From Blautia hydrogenotrophica DSM 10507 (lineage in GTDB: Bacteria > Bacillota > Clostridia > Lachnospirales > Lachnospiraceae), in assembly GCF_034356035.1 (NCBI RefSeq), contig NZ_CP136423.1:2294001-2358000 (forward strand): a stretch of DNA of 64,000 nt, read 5' to 3'. Made by a program: the position numbers and the translations under genes. Shown one piece after another: positions 14,263-52,930 of this stretch; position 1 is the stretch's first letter; every line of letters begins with the position of its first letter. Under the pieces are notes generated by a model. That model was given only the letters and a program-made list of their open reading frames with translations, was not told the DNA's origin and made no database searches.

Positions 14263-14336
14263 TCGGGGCAACAGGATTTGAACCTGCGACCTCACGGCCC
14301 CCAGCCGTGCGCGCTACCAAGCTACGCCATACCCCG
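14263..14336 (-). tRNA. tRNA-Pro (anticodon GGG)
   Basis: All four arms fold on the minus strand: acceptor CGGGGTA/TGCCCCG, D-arm with GGTAGCGC, anticodon stem CACGG/CCGTG with loop CTGGGGG (anticodon GGG), and T-arm GCAGG-TTCAAAT-CCTGT. Discriminator A at 14263; CCA is not encoded. Confidence 0.93.
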
Positions 14337-23700: not shown

Positions 23701-24050
23701 GGGCTTGTACTGGTTTCGACGGGGGTTTTGAAGTTGCGGAAGCCATTCGCAGACTCCGGCACTGCGTATCAAGCTGGAATTTTAAATATAAACGCAGACG
23801 AAGATTACGCGTTAGCAGCTGCCTAATTGCAGCTCGTCAGCCTTAGAGCACTCACACTTTAAGAATCTGGCGTCGACTATGTGAGAAACCTTACCGGCTA
23901 AGCTTTGCCCCGGTAGATGTATGATGAAGCTACTGAAGTCCTAAGCCTGTCACCGGGCGTGGGATCGAGGGAATGTCAAAACAGTGACTGTAATGGGAGA
24001 TGCCGCAAGGGATAGGCTTTCGGACGCGGGTTCGATTCCCGCCAGGTCCA
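23701..24050 (+). ncRNA. ssrA: tmRNA
   Basis: Rescues stalled ribosomes and tags the nascent peptide. tRNA-like ends pair: 5' GGGCTTG with 3' CAGGTCC, plus discriminator A at 24050 and T-arm GCGGGTTCGATTCCCGC; CCA is not encoded. Conserved TGGTTTCGACGGGGG follows the 5' end. The tag frame ends INADEDYALAAA then TAA (23824-23826); the exact resume codon is uncertain. The 3' end is the prophage integration site. Confidence 0.95.
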
Positions 24051-24060
24051 TGCATAAAAA
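24028..24060. other. Left attachment site (attL) at the ssrA 3' end, approximate
   Basis: A tyrosine integrase gene starts the prophage just beyond ssrA, and tRNA/tmRNA 3' ends are standard targets for such integrases. The element keeps ssrA intact. The core was not delimited because no second copy of the GGTTCGATTCCCGCC region is found in the window. Confidence 0.5.
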
Positions 24061-45977: not shown

Positions 45978-46575
45978 TGATTGCCTCCATTTTTCTAATT
46001 GAAACTTCATAGGTTGTCATAACTTTCATGTTTTCATCAGGGATTTTTTTTACATACTGCCTGCTTTGAATTCTTCCATAAACACGTAACTTACTTCCGA
46101 CTCCCAGCATACTCGCACAGTGAGCAGTATCTCCCCAGCAAATGCAAGGAATACAAGATGTTCTTTTTTCGGTTCTCGGAACAATAAGGAAAATATCTGT
46201 AATGAATTTTCCTTTCGGTGTTTCACGATATACTGGTTTTTTACCTATATATCCAGTTATAATCACTTCGTTTTCTTGGATATCCTTTTCTGAAAGGCAT
46301 AGCTCTTTTACAAATGCTTTTACAATTAAATGTTTTCCTTTTGTATCGAGTAAGTTATAAGAACGTAAATCTCCATATATTAGTGCGGATGCATTTTGGT
46401 AGTCTTCCTTTGCGTTAACTAATTTTTCTGTTATTAATATGGGGACTTCATCATATATTCCGCTTTTTCTCCTGGTTAAAATGACATTTTTGTAGAATCT
46501 TTCCCCATAAGCTGTATGATCGTATTCAAATTCTTTTTGCAATTTTCCTGCAACGATTACTTTGTTAATTTCCAT
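45958..46575 (-). CDS. Tandem OB-fold single-strand DNA-binding protein
   Basis: 205 residues from MEINKVIVAGKLQKEF. Two OB/SSB-like units: ~1-93 (INKVIVAGKLQKEFEYDH) and ~97-195 (ENEVIITGYIGKKPVYRETP, FLIVPRTEKRTSCIPCICWG, GSKLRVYGRIQSRQY). Resembles a doubled PriB/SSB domain. Works with RecT/ATPase genes downstream. Confidence 0.7.
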   Translation of the reverse strand: MEINKVIVAGKLQKEFEYDHTAYGERFYKNVILTRRKSGIYDEVPILITEKLVNAKEDYQNASALIYGDLRSYNLLDTKGKHLIVKAFVKELCLSEKDIQENEVIITGYIGKKPVYRETPKGKFITDIFLIVPRTEKRTSCIPCICWGDTAHCASMLGVGSKLRVYGRIQSRQYVKKIPDENMKVMTTYEVSIRKMEAINENSNS

Positions 46576-46753
46576 TTTTCTCTCCACTTTTGTCAATTTT
46601 GATTAATGCCATTACTCCAAACACACTTGATATCGCAATATTAATGAGAGCTATATCAACAATGTCTAATTGTGTAAATACCCACAAAGTTATAAAGATC
46701 ATTACCCAAATTCCTATTTGTGATAACATCACAAGAAAGTATATAAATTTCAT
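46565..46753 (-). CDS. 62-residue membrane protein
   Basis: Two hydrophobic helices (IYFLVMLSQIGIWVMIFITL and IALINIAISSVFGVMALI) and a charged tail KIDKSGEKNGN. The first small RNA gene of this prophage (46822-46895) lies just upstream on the opposite strand. Function unknown. Confidence 0.6.
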   Translation of the reverse strand: MKFIYFLVMLSQIGIWVMIFITLWVFTQLDIVDIALINIAISSVFGVMALIKIDKSGEKNGN

Positions 46754-46785: not shown

Positions 46786-46815
46786 CTTGCTAAAAACCGA
46801 AAGATAAACTACAAT
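46786..46815 (+). promoter_or_regulatory. Promoter of small RNA copy 1
   Basis: TTGCTA (46786-46791), 18-nt spacer, TACAAT (46810-46815); hairpin A begins 7 nt later, exactly as in copy 2. Confidence 0.5.
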
Positions 46816-46821
46816 ATTTAT

Positions 46822-46895
46822 GATTATAGTAAGTCCATCTTACTGTGGCCGGGGTTACTGATCTGTCACATCGGTATCCCCGCTTTTATATTTTC
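46822..46895 (+). ncRNA. Two-hairpin small RNA, copy 1
   Basis: Hairpin A: GATTATAGTAAG (46822-46833) with CTTACTGTGGCC (46839-46850). Hairpin B: GGGGTTACTGAT (46851-46862) with ATCGGTATCCCC (46870-46881), then the T-rich tail GCTTTTATATTTTC. Odd pairs are mostly G-U on the + strand and would be A-C on the minus strand, so the RNA is read rightwards, opposite to the operon. Homologous to 47646-47715 with compensatory changes. Target unknown. Confidence 0.55.
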
Positions 46896-46923
46896 TGCTA
46901 TATAATAGGAAGAAACTTTTATT

Positions 46924-47097
46924 TCAGATTGCATATACATTCCTAGTGTCGCTATCATATTTAAGTATTAAGGTATCTCCGTTGCTATCTGTTACAAAAG
47001 CTTCTCTGGAATCTGTAAATTTGATATCGAGGTTGCAGATTCCAAAATGATTTTCAATCCAATTCATAATTGCTAACTGTGCTATTGTTTTAGGCAT
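46924..47097 (-). CDS. Small hypothetical phage protein
   Basis: 57 residues from MPKTIAQLAIMNWIENHFG (47097; AAAGGAGAAAAG upstream). Beta-rich second half (REAFVTDSNGDTLILKYD). Role unknown. Confidence 0.6.
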   Translation of the reverse strand: MPKTIAQLAIMNWIENHFGICNLDIKFTDSREAFVTDSNGDTLILKYDSDTRNVYAI

Positions 47098-47365
47098 ATT
47101 CTTTTCTCCTTTGTTCATTATTTTTCAACCATGCTGGAAGCGCATATGTATCTATTGCTTCATGGATAGCGTATAAAAATTCCGGTCTTGCATATTCAAG
47201 TCCAAAAGCTCCTGATTCGCGCATGGCCATATTGTATACATCTTCATATACCTTTTCTTCTTCGGTAGAATCGGCAATACCAGATATACTTTTTACTTTT
47301 CTTTCGATGTGGCACATGATTTCGCATTTTTCTTTAACGCTTAATACTTTTACTACTTCAATCAT
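47090..47365 (-). CDS. Hypothetical phage protein
   Basis: 91 residues. GGAGGA stands directly before the ATG at 47374 but 9 nt before the ATG at 47365, so the latter start (MIEVVKVLSVKEKC) is preferred. Helical, ends PAWLKNNEQRRKEYA. Not recognised. Confidence 0.55.
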   Translation of the reverse strand: MIEVVKVLSVKEKCEIMCHIERKVKSISGIADSTEEEKVYEDVYNMAMRESGAFGLEYARPEFLYAIHEAIDTYALPAWLKNNEQRRKEYA

Positions 47366-47367
47366 TT

Positions 47368-47583
47368 TTACCATTCCTCCATTTTCTTTTCCGCTTTATT
47401 TAAGAGTCCAATAGTCAGGGCCATAAAGACTATGGCTATAGTTAGACACGTAATAATAAAGTTCTTAGTTCTAATAAGACGTCCGGCATCCGCAAGTGTT
47501 TCTGTGGTCAGCTTTCGATCTTTCACATATTTTTCTTCCCACTGTTTCCATGTATTAATGGAATGATTTTCTTTTTTCTTCAT
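47368..47583 (-). CDS. 71-residue single-span membrane protein
   Basis: Start MKKKENHSINTWKQWEEKYV (47583) with AAGGAGG. A charged N-terminal helix and one membrane segment (FIITCLTIAIVFMALTIGLL, ~43-62). The promoter of small RNA copy 2 lies just upstream and diverges from it. Confidence 0.6.
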   Translation of the reverse strand: MKKKENHSINTWKQWEEKYVKDRKLTTETLADAGRLIRTKNFIITCLTIAIVFMALTIGLLNKAEKKMEEW

Positions 47584-47609
47584 AAAAAATATCCTCCTTG
47601 AATTTGTTC

Positions 47610-47639
47610 TTGCCAAAATCAAGAGGACTATGGTAATAT
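47610..47639 (+). promoter_or_regulatory. Promoter of small RNA copy 2
   Basis: TTGCCA (47610-47615), 18-nt spacer, TAATAT (47634-47639); the hairpin begins 7 nt on. GACTATGGTAA occurs twice 20 bp apart (47626 and 47646), the first over the -10. Confidence 0.5.
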
Positions 47640-47645
47640 ACTCTT

Positions 47646-47715
47646 GACTATGGTAAGCGCTGTTTACTGTAGTCACGGGGTTATCTGTGGTCTAGACAGG
47701 TAGCCCCATCTTTAT
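47646..47715 (+). ncRNA. Two-hairpin small RNA, copy 2
   Basis: Hairpin A: GACTATGGTAAG (47646-47657) with TTTACTGTAGTC (47663-47674), all 12 positions paired on the + strand including G-U pairs. Hairpin B: GGGGTTATCTGT (47677-47688) with ACAGGTAGCCCC (47696-47707), fully paired; then ATCTTTATATATT. Same layout as copy 1. The tail overlaps the stop codon of the opposite ORF6N gene. Confidence 0.58.
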
Positions 47716-48422
47716 ATATTAATTTTCGCATTACATTCCTTAATTGCCATTCTCGTATTGCTGCATGGTGTCCAATTCCGTATGTAGTCAACCGCATCAT
47801 CAAATCGTAATCGAGGAATGTTATTCCTAGAATTGACATGGAAGTAATCTTTCACGTCCCGATTGCATTCAGAAAATACTTTCTTGCTGATTTCGTGGTA
47901 TGCAGTACTGTCCTTACCTCCAAGTGATTCAATAACAACTGCTGCGACTTCCTTTTCGAGAACCCTTTGTTGTCCATAATCAATATTCATGGTGTTTTCC
48001 AATCTGGAAATTCTTTCTTCATGCCCGTCTAACATTCCAAGCTGAACCCTCATCATTTCCTCCGGTGTCATTCTCCTATTCACCCTGAAATACGAATCGA
48101 CAAGCTGCCTTTGAACCGTCCACGCCAAATCATCGGTGAAGGACTTGACAAGCATAAGATAACCTGATTCAGTTATGAACACCTTGTCCATAAAATCGCT
48201 GTCGGATATAGCTATTATGTGGCTTTTCCGAATTTCGGAATTGCTTACAATAAAATAATCCTCTCCTTTTATGAAACGTTTTTTGTTATCGAGGAATCTT
48301 TTATTCGCTGTTCCATCTGGTCTTTCATGGACCGTATCAATATCTTTAAATGTGACAACCCTTTTCCCCTTGTATGTTTTTACTGAAATCTCATGATTTC
48401 CAATTTTCTGTAACTCTCCCAT
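47712..48422 (-). CDS. ORF6N/ORF6C antirepressor-like protein
   Basis: 236 residues. ORF6N domain (VVTFKDIDTVHERPDGTANKRF ... ITESGYLMLVKSF, ~15-105) and a C-terminal ORF6C-like domain (EVAAVVIESLGGKD ... FSECNRDVKDYFHVNSRNN). Such proteins relieve repressor control or regulate early genes. GGGGAAAGAG before the ATG. Confidence 0.78.
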   Translation of the reverse strand: MGELQKIGNHEISVKTYKGKRVVTFKDIDTVHERPDGTANKRFLDNKKRFIKGEDYFIVSNSEIRKSHIIAISDSDFMDKVFITESGYLMLVKSFTDDLAWTVQRQLVDSYFRVNRRMTPEEMMRVQLGMLDGHEERISRLENTMNIDYGQQRVLEKEVAAVVIESLGGKDSTAYHEISKKVFSECNRDVKDYFHVNSRNNIPRLRFDDAVDYIRNWTPCSNTRMAIKECNAKINI

Positions 48423-51056: not shown

Positions 51057-52916
51057 CTACACCCTTTTAATGCTATCAGCCCAAGCATACCCTATGTACT
51101 GATCGGCCACACAGACCTTGTACCAGTTGTCCTCATAACCATCCCGGCCCAGGATATCCACACGATTTCCTTTGACAAGCTTCGGCCACCCAGTAATCGC
51201 ATCCGAGGCCTTCTTCGGCTTCAGGTGAACCACACAGGTCTTCTGCACCTCGCCCACAAACCGAACAAAGCCCTGCTCTGTGAGGTTATCTTTATAGCTC
51301 TCTGCATCCACGGGCTTGACGCTGTCCGCCCAGACATAACCGATATGCTCATCCGCAACGCAGACCTTGTACCAGCCGCTTTGATAACCATAACGGCCTA
51401 AGACATCCACCAGGTTTCCTTTGGACAATTTCGGATATCCCATAATCGCAGGAGAGGCTTTCTTGGCAGCCTCATGGACCACACAAGTATTCTGTACTTC
51501 GCCTACAAATCTGGCAAACCCTTTTTGTGTCTGTCCTATCTTCTTTATCTCTGCATCCAGCTTCGCTTGCGTTGCAGGTCCCGCATTTCCGTCCTGTACC
51601 AGGCCATAGTCGCCCTGAAACTCCTGGGTTGCTTCCTTGGTAGCTGGACCGAAGTCCCCATCCGCTCCGTTCTTTCCGCAATCATAACCAATCGAGATCA
51701 GATTCTTTTGGTAGACTCTCACCGCCTCTCCCTGGTCTCCTTCGCATAGGAAATCCTTAGTCGGTGTTTCGGAGCTGCCAGATGTTACAATATAATCAAT
51801 CCATACATAGCCATCAATCCCCGAATAATTCCGGGTGTAGACTTTGTCGGCCACACAGCCTCCGTTTGCCTCTACGTTATTCAACCCACCTTTTGAGGTA
51901 TTCCCTTCGTTGGTGTAAATTTGAGTGGAAGTAACTTTCGTCACCCTGCCGATGTGGGCTCCGTTACGGAAGATTACCAGTGCTCCAAGCTTTGGCTCGC
52001 TATGCCAGGTTCTTTTGGATTTTGCATGGTTTTTGATACTGTTGCAGTTGTAGAAACCGCCTCCCATAATCTCTAAAGCCCTGGACAGACCAAAGATTTT
52101 TACACAAATCCAGAACTGGTACACGGCGCACCACGGCTGCCCCTGGCATCCAGGCTGTCCCCAGGCATTTACATCCCGGGCATACTTGGTATAATTCCCA
52201 TAGCCAGCGTTGCCGGTCTTGCTGTCTAAATTACTTTCCGATGCTTTTTCCAGATATCCAGACTCCGCCGCCATCAATTCCGCTGTTTTACTCCACAAGT
52301 CTTCCGCCACGTTCGTTTCCTCCTTTTCGCCGTAATAATAGTTCATGTCCACGTTGCCTTGGATTCCTGCAACCCTCCCACTACTGGTATACTGTTGATA
52401 GAGGCAAGGGTAATCCGGCCCGCCCGTGTAATCCGCCAGCCACAGCGGATATTTGTTCAGGACATCTTGGCGATACCAGTTTGTATAGTAGTCCCCATTA
52501 GTGTAAATACCAGTGTTGTAACCTCTTTTTTTGAAGAAATCGCAAAATGTCTGGGTAAACAGATTGCACTCATTGGGGCCAAGATTCACTCCTTTTTTGG
52601 CTGCGTTGGAGACGGTGTCATACTCAAAGTCCGCCCATACATAGATAGTTTTCGGCAGCCCCGCCTTTTCGATGTTAGCTAGACAGCTTTCCGCCTCTGC
52701 GATCACATCCTGGTTATTTAAAGCGTATAGGAGATGGTACACGCCATGGATGGGTACCTGGTTATTTTTGCACCCCTCTACATTTCGGAAAAAGTACTTA
52801 TCCGCTGCTTTCCGGTACCCTTCCCGTAGGATTACAAAATCAATCTGAGACTTTACAGCAGCCCAGTCAATGGACTTCTGCCATTCAGATACGTCAATTC
52901 CTGTTATTTTTGCCAT
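51057..52916 (-). CDS. Three-part endolysin: GH25 lysozyme, CHAP-like amidase, PG-binding and SH3 repeats
   Basis: 619 residues. 1-200: GH25 muramidase (GIDVSEWQ, VWADFEYD near 95, DMNYYYG). ~205-380: CHAP-like cysteine amidase/endopeptidase with Cys263 (QPWCAVYQFW) and His321 (GAHIGRV). ~390-455: PG_binding_1 (LCEGDQGEAVRVYQKNL ... DGDFGPATKEATQEFQ). 465-535 and 545-619: two near-identical SH3-like repeats (FVGEVQ.TCVVH...LGR.GY...WYKVCVAD..IGYAWADS). No signal peptide, so a holin is needed, yet none is found beside it. Confidence 0.88.
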   Translation of the reverse strand: MAKITGIDVSEWQKSIDWAAVKSQIDFVILREGYRKAADKYFFRNVEGCKNNQVPIHGVYHLLYALNNQDVIAEAESCLANIEKAGLPKTIYVWADFEYDTVSNAAKKGVNLGPNECNLFTQTFCDFFKKRGYNTGIYTNGDYYTNWYRQDVLNKYPLWLADYTGGPDYPCLYQQYTSSGRVAGIQGNVDMNYYYGEKEETNVAEDLWSKTAELMAAESGYLEKASESNLDSKTGNAGYGNYTKYARDVNAWGQPGCQGQPWCAVYQFWICVKIFGLSRALEIMGGGFYNCNSIKNHAKSKRTWHSEPKLGALVIFRNGAHIGRVTKVTSTQIYTNEGNTSKGGLNNVEANGGCVADKVYTRNYSGIDGYVWIDYIVTSGSSETPTKDFLCEGDQGEAVRVYQKNLISIGYDCGKNGADGDFGPATKEATQEFQGDYGLVQDGNAGPATQAKLDAEIKKIGQTQKGFARFVGEVQNTCVVHEAAKKASPAIMGYPKLSKGNLVDVLGRYGYQSGWYKVCVADEHIGYVWADSVKPVDAESYKDNLTEQGFVRFVGEVQKTCVVHLKPKKASDAITGWPKLVKGNRVDILGRDGYEDNWYKVCVADQYIGYAWADSIKRV

Positions 52917-52930
52917 CGTTTTTCCTCCTG

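Follow-up and report, generated by a model that had tools for sequence, protein, structure and literature searches.

Two short elements in the 64,000-nucleotide stretch of Blautia hydrogenotrophica DSM 10507 DNA analysed here (the window) are copies of a structured element that is almost certainly a genuine RNA family, and judging from sequence its members are probably phage cis-antisense RNAs with a promoter of their own, which would pair with the leader of a neighbouring gene and keep translation of a small membrane protein low. The family is supported by covariation, occurs in Blautia prophages, relatives and phage contigs, and comes with an identified gene partner, which makes its role directly testable. 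Opposite both window RNAs, the - strand carries a phage early operon with antirepressor-like, 71-aa, 94-aa, 64-aa, 62-aa, SSB-like and SbcC-like genes. The features concerned are the following, R2 being a covariance model and A5 a protein family, both taken up below:

46565 to 46753, - strand: gene for a 62-aa hydrophobic protein beyond copy 1; in L104 and G074, similar small proteins come after that of the A5 type (by eye)
46787 to 46815, + strand: promoter of RNA copy 1, -35 TTGCTA at 46787-46792 and -10 TACAAT at 46810-46815, with a 17-nt gap (hexamers by eye)
46822 to 46896, + strand: RNA copy 1, with hairpin A at 46824-46848, hairpin B at 46850-46882 and a U-rich tail (folds and R2 match)
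46924 to 47118, - strand: gene for a 64-aa protein, phrog_34638, relatives of which adjoin the RNA in G062 and G074
47368 to 47583, - strand: gene for a 71-aa single-TM protein, a short A5 relative lacking the C-terminal tail; copy 2 presumably targets it (A5 alignment, and profile match with E=1.1e-4)
47591 to 47598, - strand: Shine-Dalgarno (SD) region of the 71-aa gene, arm S3, able to pair with arm S2
47610 to 47639, + strand: promoter of RNA copy 2, -35 TTGCCA at 47610-47615 and -10 TAATAT at 47634-47639, with an 18-nt gap (hexamers by eye)
47619 to 47647, no strand assigned: inverted repeat TCAAGAG (47619-47625) / CTCTTGA (47641-47647) around the -10, giving the - strand leader arms S2 and S1, with locus-specific complementarity
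47646 to 47720, + strand: RNA copy 2, with hairpin A at 47646-47674, hairpin B at 47677-47707 and a U-rich tail (folds and R2 match)
47712 to 48422, - strand: antirepressor-like gene with ORF6N-ORF6C, upstream of copy 2 when read along the operon

Sequence and folds bear out the earlier note: on the + strand each copy carries a promoter, of the sigma-70 type, followed by hairpins A and B and a U-rich end, and each is situated upstream of one of the genes for the 62- and 71-residue proteins with hydrophobic stretches and points away from it; the shared promoter spacing of 18 that it described is found in copy 2, but the spacing in copy 1 is 17 nt. The RNAs would start at about 46822 (copy 1) and 47646 (copy 2). 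On the + strand the copies fold with z-scores of -4.09 and -6.08, and 0 of 200 shuffles were as good for either. The reverse strand also beats most shuffles (z -3.02 with 0 of 200 for copy 1; z -2.66 with 3 of 200 for copy 2), which is what any inverted repeat would give, and it is less stable, at -18.8 and -19.5 kcal/mol against -25.3 and -36.0 kcal/mol for the + strand of copies 1 and 2. Hairpin B with its U-rich tail is terminator-like on its own. In copy 2 the 11-mer GACTATGGTAA occurs twice, at 47626-47636 running into the -10 and at 47646-47656 at the RNA start.

Covariance models gave two different outcomes. R1, built from both window copies and searched against 64 genus and 392 order genomes, yielded no convincing relatives, its matches outside the own genome (in 2 genus and 9 order genomes) being judged terminators, coding sequence or chance, with L022 the least clear; the model is not sensitive, since in the genus search it overlooked G062, G074 and G007. 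R2, on the other hand, was seeded with G074 and L080 only and contains no window sequence, and it retrieved both window copies independently of them, as well as members found by other routes. In the window it matches copy 1 at 46786-46893 (E=1.8e-5) and copy 2 at 47609-47718 (E=4.7e-15); copy 1 is not listed when R2 is run over the whole own genome, though the window search found it.

The 17 accepted members were reached in several ways. A DNA search of the 64 genus genomes gave G062 and G074, a promoter/Shine-Dalgarno pattern gave L080, and the 64-aa protein family led to L076, which is on the same contig as L104, the RNA architecture being recognised there by eye. The A5 alignment of small proteins led to L099, L105, L106, G668 and own2, the last being another prophage-like region in the own genome (G000:C1:2155657-2155766; L110, and L124 near 5158), where the RNA adjoins the gene for a 51-aa TM protein and two XRE-type genes are nearby (by eye). 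Searches with R2 itself added G575 among 397 family genomes, G007 among 64 of the genus and, among 151 order genomes, G140, which belongs to a different family. Furthermore, tblastn with the A5 member P0102 pointed to four phage records, and three of these, GenBank phage scaffolds located by protein alone, were then matched by R2 at the expected place (over 21,926 bases): MT838609 at E=6.5e-10, MT837305 at 3.4e-4 and MT835739 at 2.0e-3, the scores of the latter two being weak at 20.2 and 17.7 bits. The fourth, Dulem virus 35, has an A5-type gene and no R2 match.

The RNA family is uncommon. Genomes with accepted R2 matches number 3 of 397 in the family (own, G668, G575), 4 of 64 in the genus (own, G062, G007 and the seed G074) and 2 of 151 in the order (own, G140), matches in four more family genomes and one order genome being rejected as members, and the RNA is present at 4 of the 18 viral loci found with A5, many of the remaining 14 being near-copies of each other. 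Blastn of copy 1 against phages returned 64 records with a best E of 0.4, the 20 matches listed covering query bases 10-51, the promoter end, and copy 2 and the L080 and G668 copies gave no phage matches. A strict pattern matched viral contigs once, within a repressor gene, which was judged chance. The SSB-like neighbour is common as a lead, being present in 270 of 397 family genomes, and gave no finds in the genome-contig collection; searches with the 62-aa and 71-aa proteins gave no viral loci. The earlier note had recognised no known family by eye, and the Rfam search likewise has no match at either window copy or at any other of the 17 members (window and 15 other loci, E up to 1); three weak Rfam hits at members' loci all fall off the RNA and below the gathering score.

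Since plain multiple alignments are structure-unaware, covariation was counted on two alignments fitted to the R2 structure, A10 with 13 members and A11 with 17 members and one unaccepted L099 row (18 rows). Such fitting favours paired and G-U cells, and with this built in, 93.6% of cells are paired in A11 and 93.5% in A10. Changes on both sides are found in 27 of 30 pairs in A11, in 109 cells as opposed to 33.7 in shuffles, which ignore relatedness, and 14-22 in slid structures, and in 24 of 30 pairs in A10 (70 cells versus 21.1 and 8-15); the A11 covariation score is 0.613, compared with 0.219 for shuffles and 0.061-0.148 for slid structures. Helix by helix, 12 of the 13 pairs in hairpin A, 11 of the 13 in hairpin B and all 4 in the repeat that flanks the -10 change on both sides. 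Covariation, which had been claimed from the two copies only, is thus upheld by the homologues. Two stem-loops and a 3' tail are kept across these, and hairpins A and B keep their pairing more than their sequence, pairwise identity being 0.26-0.84 with a median of 0.53 (13 members).

The sense of the strand follows from the non-canonical pairs, and here too the reading of G-U pairs on the + strand has held up: hairpins A and B have 4 G-U and 0 A-C pairs in copy 1 and 5 and 0 in copy 2, and the fitted alignments hold 85 G-U cells, 2 A-C cells and 24 other mismatches (A11) or 67, 1 and 19 (A10). When the 17 members and G057 are folded freely, the + strand gives the more stable fold at all 18 loci, and it forms 85 G-U pairs to 11 on the opposite one. 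The sequences thus argue strongly that the + strand is the RNA, and the selection on a + strand RNA proposed at the outset is supported by homologue covariation and strand polarity together.

The neighbouring gene on the opposite strand is of the A5 type in 14 of the 17 members, some of them assigned by eye: for own2, G007 and G140 the assignment draws in part on a weak profile match or on seeing the motif by eye, and for the three scaffolds on partial tblastn matches. The exceptions are copy 1, with its 62-aa protein, G575, with another single-TM protein (by eye), and G062 (L069), where an interrupted gene comes after the RNA: behind the SD there is a frame of three codons, followed by a gene of transposase type (IS30-like by eye). 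One gene order is shared by L104 and G074 (by eye), namely 64-aa type, RNA, A5 type, 62-aa type, SSB type, L104 having an extra small ORF, which lies between the phrog_34638 relative and the RNA. In the window, copy 1 occupies the site expected for the A5-type gene, and copy 2 with the 71-aa gene is upstream of the 94- and 64-aa genes, an arrangement that looks like duplication and loss.

This linkage also bears on the notion that the element is a trans-acting small RNA of the same fold, with its main targets elsewhere in the phage or host. Copy 1, which retains the promoter and both hairpins with no A5-type gene adjoining, is what such a role would lead one to expect; the strong tie of the family to one kind of gene, the differences among members' loops (by eye) and the keeping of pairing over sequence in both hairpins are not, and we regard action in trans as rather unlikely. 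Of the three roles put forward in the earlier note (antisense, trans-acting, type I antitoxin relative), the first, antisense regulation of the operon, agrees best with the data, given the link between the RNA and one family of membrane proteins and its complementarity to their leader.

The A5 proteins are small single-TM phage proteins sharing the C-terminal motif SYDYVSQDGEGYNYYN, and the family comprises 75 proteins at E up to 0.001. It has no solid Pfam, PHROG or PADLOC name, the best being DUF3918 in 3 of 21 members (E=3.5e-4) and three PHROGs and four PADLOC models with one member each, and it is worth testing for exclusion or toxicity. The latter would be expected of a type I toxin-antitoxin pair, in which the membrane protein is the toxin and the RNA the antitoxin, and a small TM protein, an opposite-strand RNA and a hidden SD are all type I features. 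In the available text of PMC8167048 such pairs are reported to occur in prophages and their toxins to be hydrophobic and typically <60 aa. The proteins beside the RNA measure 71, 51, 110, 109, 79, 92, 92, 127, 88 and 94 aa (L099, whose start is uncertain, and three scaffolds are outside this count); the 71-aa protein of the window and the 51-aa protein of own2 are without the conserved acidic, aromatic tail, which would suit a toxin, but most are 71-127 aa and most A5-type proteins beside the RNA carry that tail. Many A5 homologues moreover have no RNA, namely those in G667, in Dulem virus 35 and at 14 of 18 viral loci, a good number of which are near-copies. We consider a type I pair unlikely, and we return to an antisense RNA acting on the leader of the A5-type gene.

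The promoter of the RNA lies beside the SD of the opposite-strand gene. Its -35 and -10 are spaced by 17 or 18 nt in 18 of 18 loci (hexamers hand-picked), and in 11 of 13 loci a TG stands one base before the -10, which makes it an extended -10. Complementary to the leader of the neighbouring A5-type gene, the RNA overlaps neither SD nor start codon, and copy 2 would start about 63 nt upstream of the latter. On the mRNA strand, the mean energy of S1:S2 is -11.3 kcal/mol within a locus and -6.4 between loci and that of S2:S3 -13.3 and -9.9 (n=16, copy 1 and G057 excluded), and each observed mean was reached by 0 of 20,000 permutations, which ignore relatedness. Because the sRNA-strand reading of the arms also beats all 20,000 permutations (-10.2 against -6.7 and -10.1 against -7.8), these tests speak for paired arms as such, whichever strand uses them. 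S2:S3 is weak in G007 (-6.4 kcal/mol), MT837305 (-5.8) and L099 (-7.7), where the 29-nt S3 window missed the SD. At copy 1, where there is no A5-type gene, both pairings are poor (S1:S2 -1.2, S2:S3 -5.8 kcal/mol), and this one case suggests that the arms serve the leader of the A5-type gene and hairpins A and B the RNA.

Arms that co-vary, span the -10 and lie about two helical turns apart are also what operators of differing specificity would present, so that the repeat could serve a phage regulator as its operator, with the RNA no more than a short by-product that stops at a terminator. Such a DNA-level element has no need of hairpin A, which nevertheless shows both-side changes in nearly all its pairs, offers no explanation for the 85:2 polarity of G-U over A-C, and leaves the match of S2 to the SD region unexplained, all of which makes it most improbable. 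Chance or plain terminators, suggested by the resemblance of hairpin B and the U-rich tail to one and by the R1 matches to presumed terminators or coding sequence, are in our view already refuted by the independent R2 recovery and the covariation in both hairpins, the conserved promoter and the gene linkage adding to an exceedingly low probability.

What can be seen in the sequences, namely structure, strand, promoter match, linkage, complementarity and arms, leads us to infer the following for the cis-antisense RNA, from its transcription and start site to repression, its timing and the role of the protein. Each element would be a non-coding RNA gene of about 75 nt with its own promoter, terminated by hairpin B and encoded opposite the phage early operon; the RNA would pair with the untranslated leader just upstream of the small membrane-protein gene, lowering its translation and silencing, for example, stray operon transcripts in lysogeny. 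S2 may pair with S1, leaving the SD free, or with S3, which holds the SD and would thereby hide it, and pairing of the RNA next to S1 might tip the leader into the form with the SD hidden, or make it a substrate for RNase III. We put such a switch forward only tentatively as the route of repression, cleavage of the duplex by RNase III being another possible one. In a simple fold the SD is mostly hidden without the RNA in 9 of 13 leaders (P unpaired <=0.21), and masking the RNA-complementary stretch cut SD access by at least 0.09 in 4 of 13 (c1, G062, L104, own2), strongly in L104 and own2; for both reasons the switch step is not general. The membrane protein might, as a guess, exclude other phages. 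It is possible, if rather doubtful, that the whole represents a new class of riboregulator, a two-hairpin antisense RNA whose promoter lies within an S1/S2/S3 switch hiding the SD of an unstudied membrane-protein family, and if true, a single stretch of DNA would be promoter, antisense RNA and translational switch together.

The best-studied phage antisense RNAs are those of lambda and P22. In its working the element is, by analogy, most like these and the plasmid RNAs FinP and RepX. The latter two are described in parts of PMC8136791 and PMC9977716 as cis-antisense RNAs of two stem-loops in which the fold outlasts the sequence, and the present RNA resembles them in its two stem-loops, 3' tail, cis-antisense position and conservation of fold over sequence; theirs, however, covers the ribosome-binding site, whereas here the RNA is upstream and its promoter is beside the site, and working with FinO is a feature of FinP. 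From what PMC12197685 offers in the portions at hand, P22 sar is a 68/69 nt phage antisense RNA that pairs with an mRNA and hampers translation initiation, which is similar, but its target is the antirepressor gene ant and here probably a membrane protein, sequence being compared via Rfam only. Copy 2, upstream of the 71-aa gene, is found beyond the antirepressor-like gene's 3' end, and thus lacks a sar-like pairing with the antirepressor start region. P22 sas, a 105-nt phage antisense RNA acting on the superinfection-exclusion gene sieB (excerpts of PMC12197685, PMC13397905), differs in switching between two sieB products, of which there is no sign here. Lambda OOP, according to passages in PMC12197685 and PMC5869508, is a phage RNA of 77 nt that lies opposite cII and has a promoter and a terminator of its own; it is alike in these respects, but it covers the C-terminal end of cII and here the 5' leader is complementary. 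Type I RNAs are alike in lying on the opposite strand next to a small TM protein gene with an SD that can be hidden, and differ in that most proteins here are larger and have a conserved tail. A literature search on Blautia prophage antisense small RNAs found no paper, and those found on Lachnospiraceae phage antisense or stem-loop RNAs look unrelated as far as their accessible text goes; the two-hairpin family could be, unnamed, among the 3,161 candidate RNAs of human microbiomes given in the accessible part of PMC8040213.

Several R2 matches were not counted as members. Hairpin A is poor or the gene different at G598, G537 (two places), G569 and G350, L083 (18.4 bits) is beside an integrase, and further matches are at L099:1988-2065 (20.0 bits), L106:2040-2132, window 52830-52917, L080:2500-2580 on the reverse strand and G000 C1:14832 (E=0.014). 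The match in G057 (L126), likewise uncounted, adjoins a serine-recombinase-like gene, and the same architecture at such a gene hints at reuse for other genes by phages and mobile elements. L126, L083, L117, L118, L082 and L085 all have, by eye, a promoter match, an inverted repeat around the -10 and one or more terminator-like hairpins next to other genes (serine recombinase, tyrosine integrase, Lar-like, rep-like), and may be a wider class or partly chance. Elsewhere the window contains two ordinary RNA genes, for tmRNA at 23701-24053 (+) and for tRNA-Pro at 14263-14336 (-).
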